Positions 46,565 through 54,255 of a stretch of DNA of 64,000 bases are shown here, piece after piece; the first letter of the stretch is position 1; each line of letters starts with the position of its first letter. A model generated the notes under the pieces. The model was not told where the DNA came from and ran no database searches. It worked only from the letters and a program-made list of their open reading frames with translations. Source of the stretch: Lapillicoccus jejuensis. GTDB lineage: Bacteria > Actinomycetota > Actinomycetes > Actinomycetales > Dermatophilaceae. The stretch spans positions 1,426,001-1,490,000 of the forward strand of contig NZ_VFMN01000001.1 of assembly GCF_006715055.1 (NCBI RefSeq), in the 5' to 3' direction. A program made the translations under genes and the position numbers.

Positions 46565-47335
46565 TCAGGCGGCGGCGACCCGCTCCTGCCGGCCCGCGAC
46601 GACCGGGTGGAGCAGGCCCGCGACGACGGCGCCGACGACCGGGGCCACGATGAAGACCCACAGCTGGCTGAGCGCGGCACCGCCGGCGAAGAGCGCGGGG
46701 GCGATGGAGCGGGCCGGGTTCACCGAGGTGTTGCTCACCGGGATCGACACCAGGTGGATGACGGTCAGGGTCAGGCCGATGGCGAGCGGGGCGAAGCCCT
46801 GCGGCGCCCGCAGGTCCGTGGTGCCGAGGATGACGAGCACGAAGACGGCAGTGAGGACGGCCTCCGTGACGAGGACGGCGGTCAGGCCGTAGCCCTGGGG
46901 CGAGTGGTCGCCGTAGCCGTTGGTGGCGAACCCGGTCGAGGCGTCGAAGCCGGGACGGCCCGAGGCGACGGCGTAGAGCACGCCGGCGCCCGCGACGGCC
47001 CCCACCAGCTGGGCGACGACGTAGGCGGGGACGTCCTTCCAGGGCAGCCGCCCGGCGGTGGCGAGGCCGATGCTCACGGCGGGGTTGAAGTGGCCGCCGG
47101 AGACGTGGCCGACGCCGTAGGCCATCGTCGTCACGGCGAGGCCGAAGGCGAGCGCGACGCCGACGTAGCCGACGCCGACGAAGAGCGGGCTGCCGCCGGC
47201 GTCCTTGGCCGTGGCGGTCGCGGCGAGGACGGCGGTGCCGCAGCCGGCCAGCACGAGCCAGAAGGTGCCGAGGACCTCGGCGGCGATGCGGCGACCGAGG
47301 GTCGGCACCGCTGGGGTGGGGGTGGTGTCGGACAC
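46565..47335 (-). CDS. aqpZ: Aquaporin Z-type water channel
   Basis: A 256-residue MIP-family channel with six transmembrane helices and both NPA half-helices: [12 protein letters not shown] and [12 protein letters not shown], the second with the Arg of the selectivity filter. The loop and filter residues (small size, no Asp after NPA) suit a water-specific channel rather than a glycerol facilitator. It lies downstream of the Asp23/CsbD cluster on the same strand but behind a terminator, so it is likely a separate unit of the same stress region. Confidence 0.93.
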
Positions 47336-47453
47336 GGGGGATCACAACCTTTCGTGTCGCCGGTCGGGTCGGGGGTGACGGTGGGCGACGGGGGACGAGG
47401 ACGGGGGTCGGTGCTCTACGGGCTCCGCGGGTCGGGGGACGCGGGCCCGGGCG

Positions 47454-47489
47454 CACGACGGGCCGGGCCCGAAGGCCCAGCCCGTCGTG
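47454..47489 (-). terminator. Hairpin terminator after the CsbD-type gene
   Basis: CACGACGGGC and GCCCGTCGTG enclose an inner GGGCC/GGCCC stem. It lies 29 bp downstream of the csbD stop on the minus strand. Confidence 0.75.
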
Positions 47490-47517
47490 GGGTGCGGCGT
47501 GTCGCCGCAGGAGGTGG

Positions 47518-47691
47518 TCAGCCCTTGAAGACGTCCTTGACGTCCTCGCCGGTCTGCTTGGCGTCGGCCCTGGTCTGCTCGGCCTTGCCCTCCGCCTCGA
47601 GGCGCTCGTTGTCGGTCAGCTTGCCGACCGTCTCCTTGGCCTTGCCGGCCGCCTCGTCGACGGCGTTCTTGGCCTTGTCCATGAGACCCAT
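47518..47691 (-). CDS. CsbD-family stress protein
   Basis: A 57-residue hydrophilic helical protein of the CsbD family, general-stress proteins controlled by alternative sigma factors in Bacillus. Seen is MDKAKNAVDEAAGKAKETVG followed by KLTDNERLEAEGKAEQ, the family core. AGAAGGAG precedes the ATG at 47691. It ends the minus-strand Asp23 cluster, suggesting stress induction with it. Confidence 0.9.
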   Translation of the reverse strand: MGLMDKAKNAVDEAAGKAKETVGKLTDNERLEAEGKAEQTRADAKQTGEDVKDVFKG

Positions 47692-47774
47692 GGTGGTGCT
47701 CCTTCTCTCGTGGTGTGGGGGGACGGGTGGTGCTGTGGAACGGGTGGTGCGCTGGTGCTGTGCGGGGTGGGGTG

Positions 47775-48377
47775 TCACTCCACCCGGTGGTGGGTGACCT
47801 GCTCCTCGCGGCGGGCGACCCGCAGCTGCACGCGGTAGGTCAGGTCCTGGCGGCCGACCATCCGCACGAGCTTCTCGGCGGACGCCCGGGCCACCGGGGT
47901 GACGGCGGCGAGGTCGGCGCCCTGCTCGAGGACGGGCTCGAGGACGGCCACCATCTGGCCGCGGTCGAGGACGACCTTGGAGCGGCAGGACCGCACGTCG
48001 TCGCGGGCCGCCGTGATCTCGTCGGCGGCGGCCGCGGCCGCGGCACCGGCGTCCACGCGCAGCGCGCCCTGGGCGCCGGACCCGGGGAGGGTCAGCGTGC
48101 CGACGCGGCCACCGGTGAGGTGGCGCACCAGCCAGATGAGGGCGACGAGGGCGAGGGCGACGCCGATGGCGCCGGCCGCCCACGGCCACCACGACGCCCC
48201 GACCGTGGAGGTCATCCACGGGAAGGAGACCTGCGTGGCCGTGAAGCGGAACGGGTCCTTGGCCAGGTAGCCCTGGTGCCAGGCGAAGACGAAGGCGCCT
48301 CCGGCGACGAGCGCGAGGCCGGCGAGCAGGGTGACGACGCGGTCGAGCGCGACGACCCCACGGGGGGTGCTGGCCAT
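47775..48377 (-). CDS. AmaP-like/DUF6286 membrane protein, copy 2
   Basis: A 200-residue protein with two N-terminal transmembrane helices (VVTLLAGLALVAGGAFVFAW and WWPWAAGAIGVALALVALIW) and a soluble alpha/beta domain. It has the layout of AmaP, the membrane anchor of Asp23 in Staphylococcus, and of actinobacterial DUF6286 proteins. It is similar in organisation to the gene just upstream (1 bp gap), suggesting a tandem duplication with strong divergence. Confidence 0.75.
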   Translation of the reverse strand: MASTPRGVVALDRVVTLLAGLALVAGGAFVFAWHQGYLAKDPFRFTATQVSFPWMTSTVGASWWPWAAGAIGVALALVALIWLVRHLTGGRVGTLTLPGSGAQGALRVDAGAAAAAAADEITAARDDVRSCRSKVVLDRGQMVAVLEPVLEQGADLAAVTPVARASAEKLVRMVGRQDLTYRVQLRVARREEQVTHHRVE

Positions 48378-48378
48378 C

Positions 48379-48951
48379 TCAGTCCTCCTTCGGTGACGAC
48401 GTGACGACGCGGGTGCGGATGCTGGGGGTCGGACGCAGTGCCGCGAGCCGGTGGGTGACGGCCCGGTCGACCTCGGCGGTGACGCCGTTGGTGTCGGTCG
48501 CGACCGTGCGGGCGGTGACCCGCAGGGCGCGCCGGCCCGAGACGTCCGCCCGGGCGGCGACGACGGAGGTCGACTCGTGCGCCGCGTTGGCGACGAGGCG
48601 GGCGGCGTCGCTCCGGCCGATGTGGACGCCGGGCTCCTCGGCGGCCCAGTGGGTCGCCTTGCGCGGCTTGAGGGCCGCGACGATCAGGACGAGCCCGATC
48701 ACGACGGCGACGGGGCCGGCCCAGAGCATCCACGGGCTGCTGGCGGAGATGAGCTCGGCCTTGTCGGCGAACCAGCGCAGCCACGGGGTGCCGGTGACGG
48801 CACCGGCGGCCAGCAGGGCGTCGCGCAGGAAGACGACGCCGACGCCGAGGAGCACGAGGGCCAGCAGGACACCGGTGACCACGGTGGCCGGCGCCGCGGC
48901 GGGGGCCTTGGCCGGCGCCGGGGTGACGTCGGAGGTGGGGATGGTGCTCAC
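48379..48951 (-). CDS. AmaP-like/DUF6286 membrane protein, copy 1
   Basis: A 190-residue protein with two helices (VVTGVLLALVLLGVGVVFL and WMLWAGPVAVVIGLVLIVAAL) followed by a domain with DAARLVANAAHESTSVVAAR and RALRVTARTVATDTNG. This is the expected anchor for the Asp23-type proteins encoded upstream. The ATG at 48951 overlaps the stop of the Asp23 gene (ATGA). Confidence 0.78.
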   Translation of the reverse strand: MSTIPTSDVTPAPAKAPAAAPATVVTGVLLALVLLGVGVVFLRDALLAAGAVTGTPWLRWFADKAELISASSPWMLWAGPVAVVIGLVLIVAALKPRKATHWAAEEPGVHIGRSDAARLVANAAHESTSVVAARADVSGRRALRVTARTVATDTNGVTAEVDRAVTHRLAALRPTPSIRTRVVTSSPKED

Positions 48952-49367
48952 AGGAGGTTCCTCCTCTCGGGCTGGTGGTGGCGGCCGAACAGTCCGCCGT
49001 CCTCGTCACCGGTCGGGTCCTGGACCACCGAGGTGACCTGGACGTCGACGGTGTCCACGTCGAGACCGGTGAGGCGGCGCACCGTCTCGGCGACGTGCTC
49101 GCGCACCTCGGCGGCGACGGCGTACAGCGGCCGGTCCCACGAGGTGGCCACGTGGAGGGTGAGTCGGGCGTGGGTGGAGGTGAGGGTCACCTCGACCCGC
49201 GGCAGGCTGCGGCTGAGCGGGTTCAGGGGTGAGGACGTCCGCAGGACCGACGCGACCTCGAGGGCCGCCTTGCGGGCGATCGTCTCGACGACCTGGTCCT
49301 TGATGACCAGGCGACCGCGCTGGGCCGGTTCCGGCAGAGTCGTCGTGCCCCGCTGGGCCTCAGACAT
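48948..49367 (-). CDS. Asp23/Gls24 family envelope stress protein, copy C
   Basis: A 139-residue cytoplasmic Asp23-type protein: GRLVIKDQVVETIARKAALEV, then VEVTLTSTHARLTLHVATSW and AAEVREHVAETVRRLTGLDV. Asp23 proteins polymerise below the membrane through AmaP and their loss induces cell-wall stress genes. It overlaps the DUF2273-like gene upstream by 8 bp and the AmaP-like gene downstream. Confidence 0.85.
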   Translation of the reverse strand: MSEAQRGTTTLPEPAQRGRLVIKDQVVETIARKAALEVASVLRTSSPLNPLSRSLPRVEVTLTSTHARLTLHVATSWDRPLYAVAAEVREHVAETVRRLTGLDVDTVDVQVTSVVQDPTGDEDGGLFGRHHQPERRNLL

Positions 49368-49563
49368 TGCCTCGGCTGCCGCGGCGCGGGAGCAGGTCCT
49401 CGACGCTCTCGGAGAGGCTGCCGTTGCCGCCGTCGAGGTAGTGACCGAGGACGAGGCCCACGGCGCCGAGGACGATGGCGATGAGGAAGCCGAGGAAGCC
49501 GCCGGCAGCAGCGGCCACGGCGAGCAGGAGGCCGACGAACAGGCCCTTGGTGCTGTTGCTCAT
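49360..49563 (-). CDS. Small DUF2273-like membrane protein
   Basis: A 67-residue protein with a hydrophobic hairpin (LFVGLLLAVAAAAGGFLGFL and IAIVLGAVGLVLGHYL) and a charged tail. DUF2273 proteins are regular members of asp23-amaP operons. It overlaps the next gene by 8 bp. Confidence 0.8.
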   Translation of the reverse strand: MSNSTKGLFVGLLLAVAAAAGGFLGFLIAIVLGAVGLVLGHYLDGGNGSLSESVEDLLPRRGSRGNV

Positions 49564-49589
49564 GACGAGATCTCCTTGTTCAGGGGGGT

Positions 49590-49979
49590 TCAGTGGGACG
49601 TGGGGGACGAGGAGGTGGTGTCCGACACCGTGTCGTGCGCGACGTCGCCCGGCAGGACGACGTCGTCGACCGTGACGTGGACCGGACGACCCGCGACCGG
49701 CTCGAGGCGGGCGGCGACGGCCTCCGCGGTGGCGCGGACGGGCTCGTCGTACAGGACGCTGACGTGGATCTCCACGTGGTCGTCCTCGACGCGCACCCCC
49801 GCGACCTTGCGGCCGGGCAGGTACGTCGCGACCTCCCCGAAGACGCCGCCGTGCAGGTCGGCGACACCGGGGACGGCGCGGGTCAGGTCGGCGAGGCGGT
49901 CGGCGAGCTCGGGCTCCCCGGCCGGCTCGGCGGACACGGCGTCCGTCGAACCGGCAGGACCCGGGAGTCCGCTGCTCAC
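49590..49979 (-). CDS. Asp23/Gls24-like protein, copy B
   Basis: A 129-residue protein with the Asp23-like fold: LTRAVPGVADLHGGVFGEVATYLPG, KVAGVRVEDDHVEIHVSVLYD, AEAVAARLEPVAGRPVHVTV. It has acidic ends and no membrane helix. Its start overlaps the upstream Asp23 stop (ATGA). It is probably one of three paralogues of one assembly. Confidence 0.75.
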   Translation of the reverse strand: MSSGLPGPAGSTDAVSAEPAGEPELADRLADLTRAVPGVADLHGGVFGEVATYLPGRKVAGVRVEDDHVEIHVSVLYDEPVRATAEAVAARLEPVAGRPVHVTVDDVVLPGDVAHDTVSDTTSSSPTSH

Positions 49980-50482
49980 TGGACGCGGCGCTCGGCCGGC
50001 TCGTCGTCCTTGCTCAGCTCGCGGGCGGCGGCGGTGGCCGGGGCGTCGTCGTCCTCGATGTGCACGTCGGACACGGCGATGTTGACCTCGGTGACCTGCA
50101 GGCCGGTCATCCGCTCGACGGAGGCGATGACGTTGCGGCGGATGCCGGAGGCCAGGTCGGCGATACCGACGCCGTACTCGGCGATGATCGTCAGGTCCAC
50201 CGCGGCCTGCTTCTCGCCCACCTCGACCGAGACACCCTGGGAGAGGTTGGTCGAGCCGACCGGGATGCGCTCGCGCAGCAGGCCCACGGCGCGCTGGACG
50301 TTGCCGCCCAGGTCGTAGACCCCGTCGACCTCGCGGGTGGCGATGCCGGCGATCTTCGACACGACGGTGTCGGCGATCGTGGTCTTGCCCTTCTCACCGG
50401 AGGTCTGGGCCACGGTGGTCGAGCCCGTGGTGTGGGTGGTCGCCGGGGTGGTCGGCGCGGTGGTCTTGGTGGTGTCGCTCAT
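49976..50482 (-). CDS. Asp23/Gls24 family envelope stress protein, copy A
   Basis: A 168-residue Asp23 protein, best match of the three: KTTIADTVVSKIAGIATREV, DLGG, VEVGEKQAAVDLTIIAEYGV, then IADLASGIRRNVIASVERMTG. The Thr-rich N-terminus is an extension. The ATG at 50482 starts the minus-strand cluster, which runs through two more Asp23 genes, DUF2273, two AmaP-like genes and CsbD. It is divergent from the sigma factor gene at 50573, a natural place for sigma control. Confidence 0.9.
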   Translation of the reverse strand: MSDTTKTTAPTTPATTHTTGSTTVAQTSGEKGKTTIADTVVSKIAGIATREVDGVYDLGGNVQRAVGLLRERIPVGSTNLSQGVSVEVGEKQAAVDLTIIAEYGVGIADLASGIRRNVIASVERMTGLQVTEVNIAVSDVHIEDDDAPATAAARELSKDDEPAERRVQ

Positions 50483-50572
50483 GGTGTCTTCTTTCCCTTC
50501 GGTCACTGACTTGTCACCTGGTTAGTCGCGACGACGGGGGCGGACCTCACGCCGATCTCCTAGTTTCGTGGT

Positions 50573-51274
50573 GTGAACAGAGTCACGGCAGGTCCGCGTG
50601 ACGGCCTCGCCTCCCCGCTCGTCCCGTCGGCGAGCGTCGGCGGGTACGCGGACGGCGGCGCCCTCGGCGGCGCCGCGGCGACCCCGCTGCAGGACCCGCC
50701 GACGGTCGCGCCCCGGCCCGCGCTCGAGCCACGGTCGTGGTCGACGGCGAGCGACGACTCGCTGCGGCGCGCTGCGGCGTTCGGTGACCTCGAGGCCTTC
50801 CACGAGATCGTCGGCCGGCACGGTCCTGCCATGTACCGCTACGCGCAGCGCACCGTGAGCGACCGCGGCGACGCCGAGGAGGCCGTCCAGGACGCCTTCG
50901 TCGCGGCGTGGCAGACGCTGCCGGACTTCCGGGGCGACTCGTCGCTGCGGACGTGGCTGTTCACCATCACCCGGCGCAAGGCGATCGACCTGCTGCGCAA
51001 ACGTCGCCCGGTCCCCGTCGGGGACGACATGATGACCGAGCTCGTCCGGTCCGACGAGCAGGACGACGCGGGGTCCGGTTTCCTGGACGCGCTCGAGGTG
51101 GCGCTGGCCAAGCTGCCCGAGACCCAACGGTCGGTCTGGTTGCTGCGGGAGGTGGAACAGCTGAGCTACGCCGAGATCGCGTCCGTGCTGCGCAGCACCG
51201 AGACCGTCGTGCGCGGACAGCTGTCCCGGGCCCGCGCGAACCTCCAGGCCCAGCTGCGGGCGTGGAAGCCGTGA
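50573..51274 (+). CDS. ECF-type sigma-70 family factor
   Basis: A 233-residue alternative sigma factor. Region 2 (about 60-140) has the core-binding and -10 motifs LEAFHEIVGRHG, DAEEAVQDAFVAAWQ and FRGDSSLRTWLFTITRRKA. Region 4 (about 175-225) has LPETQRSVWLLREVEQLSYAEIA as a helix-turn-helix for the -35. A 55-residue Pro/Ala-rich N-terminal extension is unusual. GTG 50573 is the only sensible start near the divergent promoter. The stop overlaps the GTG of an Asp23-like gene where an anti-sigma gene often sits. Confidence 0.92.
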   Translation: MNRVTAGPRDGLASPLVPSASVGGYADGGALGGAAATPLQDPPTVAPRPALEPRSWSTASDDSLRRAAAFGDLEAFHEIVGRHGPAMYRYAQRTVSDRGDAEEAVQDAFVAAWQTLPDFRGDSSLRTWLFTITRRKAIDLLRKRRPVPVGDDMMTELVRSDEQDDAGSGFLDALEVALAKLPETQRSVWLLREVEQLSYAEIASVLRSTETVVRGQLSRARANLQAQLRAWKP

Positions 51275-51762
51275 ACCCCGTGTCCGAGGAGCCGTCCGTG
51301 CCCTATGCGTCCTCCGGGGCGGCGCCGGCCGAGCCCGACTTCCTCTCCGGTGCCGCCCAGCGGCTGCGGGAGAGCCCGGTCGACGGGTGGACCGACATCT
51401 CCGCCGCGATCCAGCGCCGCCTGAAGACGGTCCGCCGTCGCAGTCGACCCATCCGGGCGGTCACCGAGTCCGGTCGCACGATGTTCGTCGCCGACCGGGT
51501 CATCCTGTCGCGCCTGCGCGAGGCGGTCGCCGAGATCGAGGACTGCGAGCTGGACTCCGTGTCGCTCGTCGGTGAGGACGACACGTGCACCGGTGCGGCC
51601 ATCGACGTCGTCAGCCGCTACGGCCACGACTACCAGGAGCTCGCCGACCGGGTCCGTTCGGTGGCGTACGACGTCTTCCGCGAGCTGCTCGGCCCCACCG
51701 AGCCGGCCTTCGGCATCGAGGGGGTCGACGTCACCGTCAAGGACCTGACCGACGAGGGGTGA
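51271..51762 (+). CDS. Asp23-like partner of the sigma factor
   Basis: A 163-residue soluble protein, coupled to the sigma gene by GTGA. The C-terminal 110 residues (VTESGRTMFVADRVILSRLREAV, then ATGAA-like core and SVAYDVFRELLGP, IEGVDVTVKDL) share the Asp23 layout with the cluster across the divergent promoter. It lacks the zinc motif and transmembrane helix of common anti-sigma factors. A role linking Asp23 state to sigma activity is a hypothesis from position and family only. Confidence 0.75.
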   Translation: MNPVSEEPSVPYASSGAAPAEPDFLSGAAQRLRESPVDGWTDISAAIQRRLKTVRRRSRPIRAVTESGRTMFVADRVILSRLREAVAEIEDCELDSVSLVGEDDTCTGAAIDVVSRYGHDYQELADRVRSVAYDVFRELLGPTEPAFGIEGVDVTVKDLTDEG

Positions 51763-51772
51763 CGGTCGTCTC

Positions 51773-51790
51773 CCTCACGTTCGCGTGAGG
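51773..51790 (+). terminator. TTCG tetraloop hairpin
   Basis: CCTCACG-TTCG-CGTGAGG lies 10 bp after the Asp23-like stop; the stable tetraloop and 7-bp stem suit a terminator or RNA-stabilising end. Confidence 0.55.
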
Positions 51791-51873
51791 ATCGGGACCG
51801 ACGACACGTCGTACGGGGTGACACCGGCTCCGCCTCCGGGCGGCGCCTCCCGTTTCGTCGAGAGGACCTCACC

Positions 51874-51990
51874 ATGGCCCGCGCCAAGCGCACCGCGTTC
51901 ACCGCCCTCGGATGGGTGGCCTGGCAGCTGCTCGCCCGGGTCGGCGTGCCCGCCGCGAAGCGGAAGGTGCGCGAGCGGCGTCACCGCTGA
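51874..51990 (+). CDS. 38-residue basic amphipathic small protein
   Basis: Short gene ATG 51874 to TGA 51988-51990, with GAGAGGA upstream and a strong terminator just after it. The product has a basic start (MARAKRTAF), a hydrophobic middle (TALGWVAWQLLARVGVPA) and a very basic end (KRKVRERRHR), so it probably binds membranes. It follows the sigma/Asp23-like pair. No family was recognised. Confidence 0.6.
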   Translation: MARAKRTAFTALGWVAWQLLARVGVPAAKRKVRERRHR

Positions 51991-52005
51991 GGCGTCCGTG
52001 ACACG

Positions 52006-52050
52006 ACGACGCCCCGGGGCCGTTGCACCGCAACGGTCCCGGGGCGTCGT
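52006..52050. terminator. Strong 21-bp hairpin terminator
   Basis: Arms ACGACGCCCCGGG... (52006-52026) and 52030-52050 pair at 20 of 21 positions around a 3-nt loop, between convergent genes. Confidence 0.85.
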
Positions 52051-52073
52051 GTCGCCCGGGTGGGGCGCTCCGC

Positions 52074-52979
52074 TCAGAGGCGACCGAGGACCGCGAGGGT
52101 GCGGGCGGCCATGGCGGCCTCGCCCTGCGCGTTCGGGTGGATCGGGAAGGCGTTGACCGGACCGATGGCCGGCTCGATCCAGCGGGTGCCCTCGGGCTGG
52201 CAGGCGTCGTGGCCCATCGAGGCGTTCGTCATGTCGACGTAGACCGCGCCGGTCGCGAGGGCCGCGCGGCGCACGGCGTTGTTGAGGACGGCCTGCTGCT
52301 TGCCCAGCCACGGGACGTCGCCGAGCGCGATCGGCACGGAGGACAGGCACGCGGGGGAGCCGACCGCCGGGAGGATCGTCGGGTAGCCGACGATGACCAC
52401 CGTCGCGTTCGGCGCCTTCGCCCTGACCGCGGTGAGCGTCTTGACGAGGTTGGGGTAGGTCGTCGTGCGGATCGCGTTGACGAAGGTGTTGCCGAACTTC
52501 TGCTCGCACGGGTTGCCGGTCGGGTCGCTCGCCGCGACGCTGGCGCAGCCGAAGAACGAGGTGGCGAAGACGTCGCCGTCGTTGCCGCCGATCGTCATCG
52601 TCACCAGGCGGGTCTGCTTGGTGACCGCGTCGAGCTGCGGGGCGACCCCGGCCAGCTGCGAGGTGAAGAAGTCGGAGGTCTTCGCGCCGCTGCAGGTGAC
52701 GTCGGTGAACGACGACGCCCGGGTCGCGGTCGCGATGTCGTGGGCGAAGTTGAGCAGCGACCGGCTGCACGCGGCCGGCGCCCCCGGGACCTGCGGCATG
52801 ACGCCGGCGGCGGACGAGTAGCTGTCGCCCAGGGCGACGTACGGCTGGGTGCGCACCGAGGTCGCGCTCGCGGGCGACGGGGCGGAGGACGTGGGCCTCG
52901 CGTCGGCGGTGCCGGCGAGACCGATCGCCGACGTGGCGGCGATGAGGGTGGACAGGGCGATCCCAGCGGTACGACGCAT
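52074..52979 (-). CDS. Secreted SGNH/GDSL esterase or lipase
   Basis: A 301-residue exported hydrolase like Streptomyces secreted lipases. The signal peptide (MRRTAGIALSTLIAATSAIG ... ADA) is followed by a Ser/Pro/Thr spacer and the SGNH domain: Ser in VALGDSYSSAAG, Gly in the second block, Asn in TIGGNDGD, and Asp/His near the end with His in PIHPNAQG. Cysteine pairs (ACSRS, TCSG, GCASV, PCEQ) suggest disulfides outside the cell. ATG 52979 with GGAG 7 bp upstream is preferred to a TTG two codons earlier. Confidence 0.92.
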   Translation of the reverse strand: MRRTAGIALSTLIAATSAIGLAGTADARPTSSAPSPASATSVRTQPYVALGDSYSSAAGVMPQVPGAPAACSRSLLNFAHDIATATRASSFTDVTCSGAKTSDFFTSQLAGVAPQLDAVTKQTRLVTMTIGGNDGDVFATSFFGCASVAASDPTGNPCEQKFGNTFVNAIRTTTYPNLVKTLTAVRAKAPNATVVIVGYPTILPAVGSPACLSSVPIALGDVPWLGKQQAVLNNAVRRAALATGAVYVDMTNASMGHDACQPEGTRWIEPAIGPVNAFPIHPNAQGEAAMAARTLAVLGRL

Positions 52980-53173
52980 CGTCAACTCCGTTGTCGAGTA
53001 ATGGTTCCAGGGGGGAACCTATGCCGGGCGCAGTCCCTCCACAACGGTCTCGGCGAAACTCCCAGCCGATCTGTCTCAGGCGGGCTCGACGGGCAGGCGC
53101 AGGAGCGTGCGCAACCGGGACGGATCGGTCCGGCGCGGGTCGCGAGGCAGATCTCGTGGTGGTGGCCGGTGGG

Positions 53174-53246
53174 TGGAGCCAAGGGGACTCGAACCCCTAA
53201 CCCCCTGCTTGCAAAGCAGGTGCGCTACCAATTGCGCCATGGCCCC
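53174..53246 (-). tRNA. tRNA-Ala (anticodon TGC)
   Basis: A 73-nt minus-strand tRNA: acceptor GGGGCCA/TGGCTCC with the G3-U70 pair that identifies alanine tRNA, anticodon loop TTTGCAA and T arm GGGGTTCGAGTCCCC. CCA is not encoded. Confidence 0.97.
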
Positions 53247-53263
53247 TGGTGGGTGGTGCCTCC

Positions 53264-53395
53264 TCAGCCGCCCGAGCGCACGTCGTCGGTGGCCTCGGCC
53301 CAGAGGTCCTGCTCGGCCTTCTGGTCGCGCAGCTTCTTCTGGACGGCCAGGGCGCCGGCGGCGGTCGCGGCGAGCAGGACCAGTCTCTTCAGCAC
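53264..53395 (-). CDS. DLW-39 family small protein
   Basis: A 43-residue actinobacterial protein named for its conserved DLW: here KAEQDLWAEATDDV follows an N-terminal hydrophobic stretch (RLVLLAATAAGALAV). GTG 53395 has AGGAGG 5 bp upstream. It lies between tRNA-Ile and tRNA-Ala downstream of gyrA, its usual place. Function is unknown. Confidence 0.9.
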   Translation of the reverse strand: MLKRLVLLAATAAGALAVQKKLRDQKAEQDLWAEATDDVRSGG

Positions 53396-53441
53396 GGCGG
53401 CCTCCTGAGCTACGACGCACGGTCCGCCGGGGGGCGAGGGG

Positions 53442-53515
53442 TGGGCCTAGGAGGACTTGAACCTCCGACCTCTTCCTTATCAGGGAAGCGCTCTAACCGT
53501 CTGAGCTATAGGCCC
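53442..53515 (-). tRNA. tRNA-Ile (anticodon GAT)
   Basis: A 74-nt minus-strand tRNA: acceptor GGGCCTA/TAGGCCC with discriminator A, anticodon loop CTGATAA and T arm GGAGGTTCAAGTCCTCC. CCA is not encoded. Confidence 0.97.
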
Positions 53516-53679: not shown

Positions 53680-54255
53680 TCAGTCGTCGGTGAGCGTCAG
53701 CTGCAGGCCGCCGACGAGGGCGGCGCAGATGTTGTAGAGGAACGCGGCCAGCGTGGCGATCGCGGTCTGGAGGATGACGTTGATGACGCCGAAGACGACG
53801 GCGAGCGAGATGACCCGGCCGAAGCCGATGTAGTCCATCAGCTCGAAGCCGCTCGTGCTCGAGGTCAGCAGGTCCTTGATGATGCGGTCGACGTCGGAGA
53901 AGACGCCCATCCCGCTGAGCACCAGCCAGATGACCATGGTGACGACGACGCCGGCGATCGCGCCCGCGACGGCGAGCAGGAAGGACATCTTCATGACCGA
54001 CCACGGGTCGACGCGCGCGACGGCGAGCTTGACGCGGCGGGCGGTCGCGGGCGCCGTACGGCGTGGCGGCTGCGCCGGGCGGGTGGGCCGCGCCGCTCCG
54101 GCCGGGCGGCTCTGCGGCCGCTGGCCCTGGGGGCCGCCGGAGGCCCCGGTCGGCCGCTGGACGACGGGGGTGGACTGCGTCCGCGGGGACGTCGCCGTCC
54201 CCGACCCGCGCTGCCCGCCCGAGGGCGGGGTGCCGCCCTGGCCAGTCGTGCTCAC
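53680..54255 (-). CDS. DUF3566 membrane protein
   Basis: A 191-residue protein always found after gyrA in actinobacteria. The first 75 residues are Pro/Gly/Arg-rich and disordered. The domain has [19 protein letters not shown], a helix ([19 protein letters not shown]) and a second one ([19 protein letters not shown]). GTG 54255 overlaps the gyrA stop. Mycobacterial equivalents bind division or wall proteins; the precise role is open. Confidence 0.92.

Follow-up and report, generated by a model that had tools for sequence, protein, structure and literature searches.

A divergent ECF sigma factor gene with an overlapping Asp23-like gene at the Asp23 cluster of Lapillicoccus jejuensis, and its predicted promoter

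The sigma factor and Asp23 genes at the locus

The locus described here lies in a 64,000-nt stretch of the Lapillicoccus jejuensis genome (the window; NZ_VFMN01000001.1, positions 1,426,001-1,490,000, from GCF_006715055.1, a single contig of 4.58 Mb), and coordinates below are window positions unless another part of the genome or another locus is named. On the plus strand, a gene for an extracytoplasmic function (ECF) sigma factor (50573-51274) is followed by the gene of a soluble Asp23-like protein of 163 residues, X163 (51271-51762), and by a 38-residue open reading frame (ORF). Opposite them, the minus strand carries (50479 to 47518) genes for Asp23a, Asp23b, DUF2273, Asp23c, an AmaP-like protein with DUF6286, a second AmaP-like protein and CsbD. 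An initial annotation, made from the letters alone, had described seven minus-strand genes with three Asp23 paralogues, faced by an ECF-type sigma gene overlapping an Asp23-like gene; all of these genes were recovered where it had placed them, and the overlap consists of four bases, GTGA, common to the stop of the sigma gene and the start of the X163 gene.

The sigma factor was matched by Sigma70_r2 (70.8 bits, E 8.6e-20) and Sigma70_r4_2 (48.4 bits, E 7.5e-13) of Pfam, both above cut-off, and by TIGR02937 of NCBIfam (99.2 bits versus a cut-off of 42.9); it thus holds region 2 and region 4 without region 3, as ECF (group 4) sigma factors do. Its open frame has 233 codons and ends in a Trp that is invariant at the C terminus of all 33 aligned sigma factors. 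The conserved part begins at about residue 53; residues 1-50 (50573-50728) are of low complexity and unconserved. The start of the protein is uncertain, because the sole in-frame ATG, GTG or TTG before the sigma domain, the GTG at 50573, falls inside a CRP-like site (see below), and translation may actually begin at an unusual codon downstream of it.

The cluster facing the sigma gene is an Asp23-type set. Asp23a (49976-50479, minus strand), the best-conserved of the three paralogues, is well above the PF03780 cut-off (E 1.2e-29) and starts with ATG, with an alternative upstream GTG start possible at 50506. Asp23c (48948-49367, minus) is also above cut-off (E 6e-12), and the divergent Asp23b (49590-49979, minus) reaches 20.2 bits, below the cut-off of 28. 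Between Asp23b and Asp23c is a small DUF2273 membrane protein with a hydrophobic segment (49360-49563, minus; PF10031 E 2.2e-4, 21.6 bits, below the cut-off of 25.4). The AmaP-like membrane protein at 48379-48951 (minus) carries DUF6286 (PF19803 E 9.4e-15), and the AmaP-like membrane anchor at 47775-48377 (minus) has two hydrophobic segments and a match to NF033218 that is below cut-off (E 5e-7); the AmaP model fits both weakly, at 29.6 and 22.4 bits (cut-off 55). The cluster ends with CsbD (47518-47691, minus; PF05532 E 3.1e-18).

X163 as a remote relative of Asp23

No match of X163 to PF03780 was found by hmmscan at E<=1, so that Pfam membership by gathering score does not apply, and searches against Pfam, NCBIfam and PHROG at E<=1 returned nothing relevant (from Pfam, only DUF7621 at 0.15). 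No match was found among plasmids, and none of the 40 pattern matches from a single-sequence scan of genome contigs was confirmed. As X163 has no Pfam match, the label ‘Asp23-like' had to be based on profile-profile comparison, and the protein is not filed as a PF03780 member. In this comparison the X163 profile matched those of Asp23a (E 7.2e-9), Asp23c (4.2e-8) and Asp23b (1.7e-6), whereas the profiles of the two AmaP-like proteins (0.21 and 0.096) and of the sigma factor (0.0073) were not matched. The kinship was reproduced with larger alignments (A2 versus A4; E 9.4e-8), and 8 of the 17 members of the X163 family match PF03780 at E<=0.1 (best 0.0015).

The AlphaFold2 model of X163 (mean predicted local distance difference test score (pLDDT) 82; 69-74 in the blocks holding the N-terminal helices) shows helices at residues 23-34 and 40-55, followed by an alpha/beta domain from residue 60; no membrane segment was predicted. 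A fold search with this model retrieved the ferredoxin-like C-terminal domains of cation diffusion facilitator (CDF) transporters as well as domains that build rings in secretion systems (best Z 9.5), similarities that reflect a shared arrangement only, and no Asp23 structure was among the matches listed. A structure model of Asp23a intended for the fold comparison was too poor to be used (pLDDT 57). By its profile matches and predicted structure, X163 is a remote soluble relative of Asp23 carrying an added N-terminal helical part.

The position of X163, directly after and overlapping the sigma gene, is that of zinc anti-sigma (ZAS) and class I anti-sigma factors. X163 differs from them in that it has neither an HxxxCxxC motif (Cys 92, Cys 106 and His 119 only) nor a membrane segment, and in its Asp23-like domain. 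The class I anti-sigma domain (ASD) fold has four helices; in X163 only two N-terminal ones are predicted. A reading of X163 as a zinc anti-sigma factor was rejected for lack of the motif, and the earlier proposal that an Asp23-like gene takes the usual place of an anti-sigma factor is borne out as far as position and kinship are concerned.

A second, shorter X163-like protein is encoded elsewhere in this genome (1063967-1064236; L036:7842-8279); its gene has no sigma gene beside it and is oriented divergently to an Asp23b-like gene, with CsbD near.

Pairing of the sigma factor and X163 in Actinomycetota

By single-sequence search, X163 was matched in 18 of 149 genomes of the home family; a profile search of the class gave matches in 85 of 393 genomes, many of them being the Asp23a gene itself. 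In the 20 stretches first fetched by X163 or Asp23a matches, a sigma-X163 pair divergent from an Asp23 cluster was the usual order. The exceptions comprise a pair without a cluster (L029), a damaged cluster (L032), the second Asp23a-CsbD locus (L043), and two stretches holding X163 without the sigma gene, namely L036 of this genome and L039, where the X163 frame is broken. Among f2/f34 relatives the pair is found at the end of the Asp23 operon (L149, L150 and L152), facing it (L153 and L155) or after it (L154).

For all 45 sigma ORFs (E<=1e-15) in the fetched loci, the next ORF starts at -3 or -9 and matches the X163 or Asp23 profile. This count is partly built in, since most loci were fetched by X163 similarity; ten were reached via Asp23a alone (L131, L134, L141, L146, L149, L150, L152, L153, L154 and L155). 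A survey by sigma similarity only was also made, with 80 named loci as the best of 581 (a few being genomes already sampled). The sigma factor scored at least 150 bits in 62 of the 80, and 59 of these 62 have an adjacent Asp23-like gene: 55 were confirmed by profile, with offsets of -3 (38 loci), -9 (14) and +2, +8 and +9 (one each), and four otherwise, L160, L161 and L188 by a profile match on an ORF with a missed start and L194 by eye. Below 150 bits, a partner was present in only 2 of 18 survey loci. An Asp23a gene is faced by 55 of the 59 sigma-partner pairs.

In a tree of 104 sigma sequences, on which the with- and without-partner labels were assigned by the author of the analysis, 87 rows, all actinobacterial, form one clade (99/92) that contains 84 of the 85 paired rows plus three unpaired ones. 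Its subclades are Streptomycetaceae, a mainly Microbacteriaceae group, and 45 rows with Rhodococcus, Mycolicibacterium, Kribbella and the window sigma factor. The paired row outside the main clade, L134 (449-1072), is a sigma gene with an Asp23-domain protein directly after it and is perhaps an independent pairing; its sister is L216, where the downstream ORF is unconfirmed. No sigma-X163 fusion was found among ORFs of at least 100 residues in the loci examined. The arrangement is met again and again across many genera, more than chance would give.

A shared predicted promoter

A two-block motif, CGTGMSGW-N15-CGWCYAA, precedes Asp23a at one fixed spacing in 27 of 30 training loci: the motif search over the 30 divergent regions returned GCGTGACGT-like and CGCGACTAA-like blocks, 13 nt apart in these 27. 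Of six search runs, the best three scored 522-545 and the other three 417-442. Under leave-one-out scoring the motif was above all 200 shuffles in 25 of the 30 loci; L038 was reached by two shuffles and L079 by one, and L034, L090 and L093 failed. The predicted promoter of the window cluster, GCGTGAGGT-N13-CGCGACTAA (50522-50552, minus strand), lies 42 nt from the Asp23a ATG and is the best site of the window at 26.3 bits (25.9 when left out, versus a maximum of 14.6 in 200 shuffles). On both strands of the window, the second-best site (18.4 bits) is composed of the same two blocks and lies 60 nt before the ATG of the 38-residue gene (51783-51813, plus strand), the next sites scoring 14.2 and 13.2 bits.

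Beyond the window, pattern matching with at most one mismatch gave 34 genomic matches versus 8 for the reversed pattern (29 versus 5 with a looser pattern). Most of the other matches sit within long open frames, and the genome-wide pattern search was abandoned as a means of defining the regulon for its many chance matches in coding sequence; the sites kept were chosen by eye among 30 scored loci as those closely followed by a start codon and standing before a gene that fits. One of them (19.6 bits) precedes a second Asp23a-CsbD operon (3120133-3120465; L043), with the start codon 40 to 42 nt behind. The Asp23a of this operon is 93% identical to that of the window and is preceded by a CRP-like site plus the same blocks, so that its promoter may be a copy; the sequences point to a duplication that carried the promoter along. 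The other site (22.5 bits) is 42 nt from the ATG of a gene for an 86-residue GlsB-like protein (PF04226 E 2.9e-4, below cut-off). GlsB was dropped as a conserved regulon member and regarded as peculiar to this species: in 20 sigma-bearing genomes with 27 GlsB-type loci in all, the motif preceded one, namely that of this genome, and it preceded none of the 30 loci found in 30 sigma-less genomes (a match was present in 24 of the genomes); the next best score was 11.3.

In held-out loci the motif reached at least 13 bits in 24 of 62 sigma-linked cases versus 3 of 22 unlinked ones (Fisher p 0.035, a guide only, as the loci are related), which is moderate support. The three unlinked loci, L043, L088 and L092, belong to genomes (G000, G426 and G221) that bear a sigma-X163 pair elsewhere, and in L133, which scored 12.8 bits, the operon ends with a sigma-like gene. 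A link between the sigma gene and the Asp23 cluster is supported by this shared predicted promoter, which suggests that the sigma factor drives the cluster.

A CRP-like site beside the promoter

Actinobacterial Crp/GlxR proteins bind the palindrome TGTGAN6TCACA. In the window, a palindrome with one mismatch to this consensus, TGTGAACAGAGTCACG (50572-50587), lies 19 nt upstream of the promoter block. With at most two mismatches and within 45 nt upstream of the block, such a site was present in 22 of the 27 loci versus 0.75% of single-base shuffles; its spacing to the block is 8 or 9 nt in 18 loci; in the window and in L024, the nearest relative of the window, it is 19 nt, longer by one helical turn. 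The putative CRP-like site suggests a second input to the promoter.

A candidate Asp23-type anti-sigma system and its alternatives

In a 2022 review (PMC8999054), the groups ECF286 and ECF292, credited there to Casas-Pastor et al. 2021 and exemplified by members from Streptomyces rimosus and Mycolicibacterium cosmeticum, are said to adjoin soluble Asp23-family proteins that are predicted anti-sigma factors. The window resembles these groups in that its ECF sigma gene adjoins, and indeed overlaps, the gene of a soluble Asp23-family protein, X163; within the tree, the window sigma factor groups with Mycolicibacterium and Rhodococcus, whereas Streptomyces forms a separate clade. From architecture and tree place, rather than from the sequence models of the groups, we infer that it probably belongs to ECF286/ECF292. 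The suggestion of the initial annotation that an Asp23-domain protein reports envelope state to the sigma factor is plausible and partly supported; it is not new, since the review already predicts an anti-sigma role for such proteins. What this analysis adds to the account given there is the predicted promoter, the small putative regulon and the CRP-like site. An experimental study of a sigma/Asp23-like anti-sigma pair was not found in a literature search that had most subscription journals outside its reach.

Asp23 of Staphylococcus aureus is under SigB control. As described in PMC6954212, Asp23 proteins are abundant in many Gram-positive bacteria with an unclear task, and in S. aureus Asp23 forms filaments and shares one operon with its membrane anchor AmaP, loss inducing cell wall stress genes. 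The window is alike in having Asp23 proteins and AmaP-like anchors in one operon and differs in its divergent ECF sigma gene with an Asp23-like partner of its own; no Asp23 protein is known to act as a sigma partner in S. aureus.

The reading that we favour, with somewhat better than even confidence, is that of an ECF sigma factor with X163 as its probable anti-sigma factor, the sigma factor driving the Asp23 cluster and a small regulon; an anti-sigma role is the most likely one for X163. The sigma factor and X163 would be translated together, and X163 would bind the sigma factor via its two N-terminal helices and keep it off RNA polymerase. The sigma factor would be freed when the envelope is disturbed, a change probably sensed by the Asp23-type domain and related proteins in the AmaP-anchored layer, so that the signal would be the state of that layer. 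The freed sigma factor would read CGTGMSGW-N15-CGWCYAA promoters and raise the Asp23/DUF2273/AmaP/CsbD cluster, the 38-residue gene, the second Asp23a-CsbD operon and probably the GlsB-like gene, thereby raising the genes of the Asp23-AmaP layer itself. A more speculative extension, which we regard as rather unlikely, is that X163 partitions between the sigma factor and the layer built by that same sigma factor, so that the cell gauges how complete the layer is: an ample free layer would take up X163 or hold it apart from the sigma factor, a balance that damage or shortage would shift. We know of no other system in which an anti-sigma factor is controlled in this way, by partner switching through incorporation into a scaffold.

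Several observations weigh against the favoured reading. Three close sigma loci inside the main clade (L162, L187 and L203) have no Asp23-like partner. At L036 and L092, X163 occurs with no sigma gene beside it, and it may therefore have other tasks. In 100 pairs, with an effective number of 70, no covariation above the null was found between the sigma factor and X163: 190 of 200 within-clade permutations attained the top score with finer clustering and 107 of 200 with coarser clustering, and 185 and 23 of 200, respectively, attained the top-ten mean, a result that is evidence neither way for contact between the two proteins. The held-out support for the motif is modest, 38 of the 62 sigma-linked loci scoring below 13 bits, among them many from Streptomyces, Williamsia and other genera, where either the motif differs or the link between sigma factor and cluster does not hold. 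The restriction of the GlsB site to this genome counts on the same side, as does the absence of the motif upstream of the sigma gene itself in all scanned loci except L024 (14.7 bits), so that there is no sign of the autoregulation that ECF systems usually show.

The sigma-less copies, which stand beside Asp23 or CsbD genes, the null covariation and the frequency of the CRP-like site in the divergent promoters would also suit a structural Asp23 paralogue or an activator that joins the Asp23-AmaP layer, with control of the sigma factor exerted mostly at the level of transcription, for instance via the CRP-like site. We judge this explanation unlikely, because the near-obligatory overlap of X163 with one sigma lineage and the helical part before its Asp23-type domain suit a sigma partner better. 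It is quite improbable that pair and cluster are neighbours by history, with the cluster driven by another regulator, for example a CRP-family protein together with another sigma factor. The fixed distance of the CRP-like site from the promoter block in many loci would fit such control, and so would the many low-scoring sigma-linked loci; yet the -10 block CGWCYAA differs from a TANNNT box, once second loci of sigma-bearing genomes are set aside, the motif reaches 13 bits in none of the 19 remaining unlinked loci, and it recurs away from a divergent sigma gene, before the second Asp23a operon and the 38-residue gene. Were the sigma factor indeed bound to its Asp23-like partner, as the favoured reading holds, the pair would offer a direct handle on what the Asp23 layer senses, and the predicted promoter makes the published idea of an Asp23-type anti-sigma factor testable across Rhodococcus, Nocardioides, Streptomyces and relatives.

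The sigma locus of Prescottella equi (L187) has, as read by eye, a GAF-domain-like frame after the sigma gene in place of the Asp23-like partner.

The 38-residue protein, hairpins and neighbouring genes

The 38-residue gene (51874-51990, plus strand), with the 18.4-bit site upstream, encodes a cationic protein (net charge +10) with relatives in 4 of 20 loci by phmmer (L024, L025, L026 and L027) and in L095 by profile, where they close the operon of X163 or of CsbD. The gene had been called before as that of a membrane-binding protein; the gene stands, and ‘membrane-binding' is a guess, as no 19-residue segment exceeds 1.6 on the Kyte-Doolittle scale. A terminator had likewise been proposed to close the set. 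A GC-rich long hairpin is indeed found 3′ of the gene (52000-52055, plus strand; folding z -4.97, with none of 200 shuffles as stable) and is a probable terminator, as is another long, GC-rich hairpin 3′ of CsbD (47454-47489, minus strand; folding z -4.83 for 47425-47520, with none of 200 shuffles as stable); both are without a T run, and a terminator consensus scan called none at either.

Beyond the hairpins, the frames at 46565-47335 and 52074-52985 resemble, by eye, an aquaporin-family protein and a secreted SGNH-type hydrolase and are apparently unrelated to the system. Near the cluster are also genes for tRNA-Ala and tRNA-Ile (53172-53515), and next after them is the gene of a membrane protein (53680-54255) that resembles the DUF3566 neighbour of gyrA.

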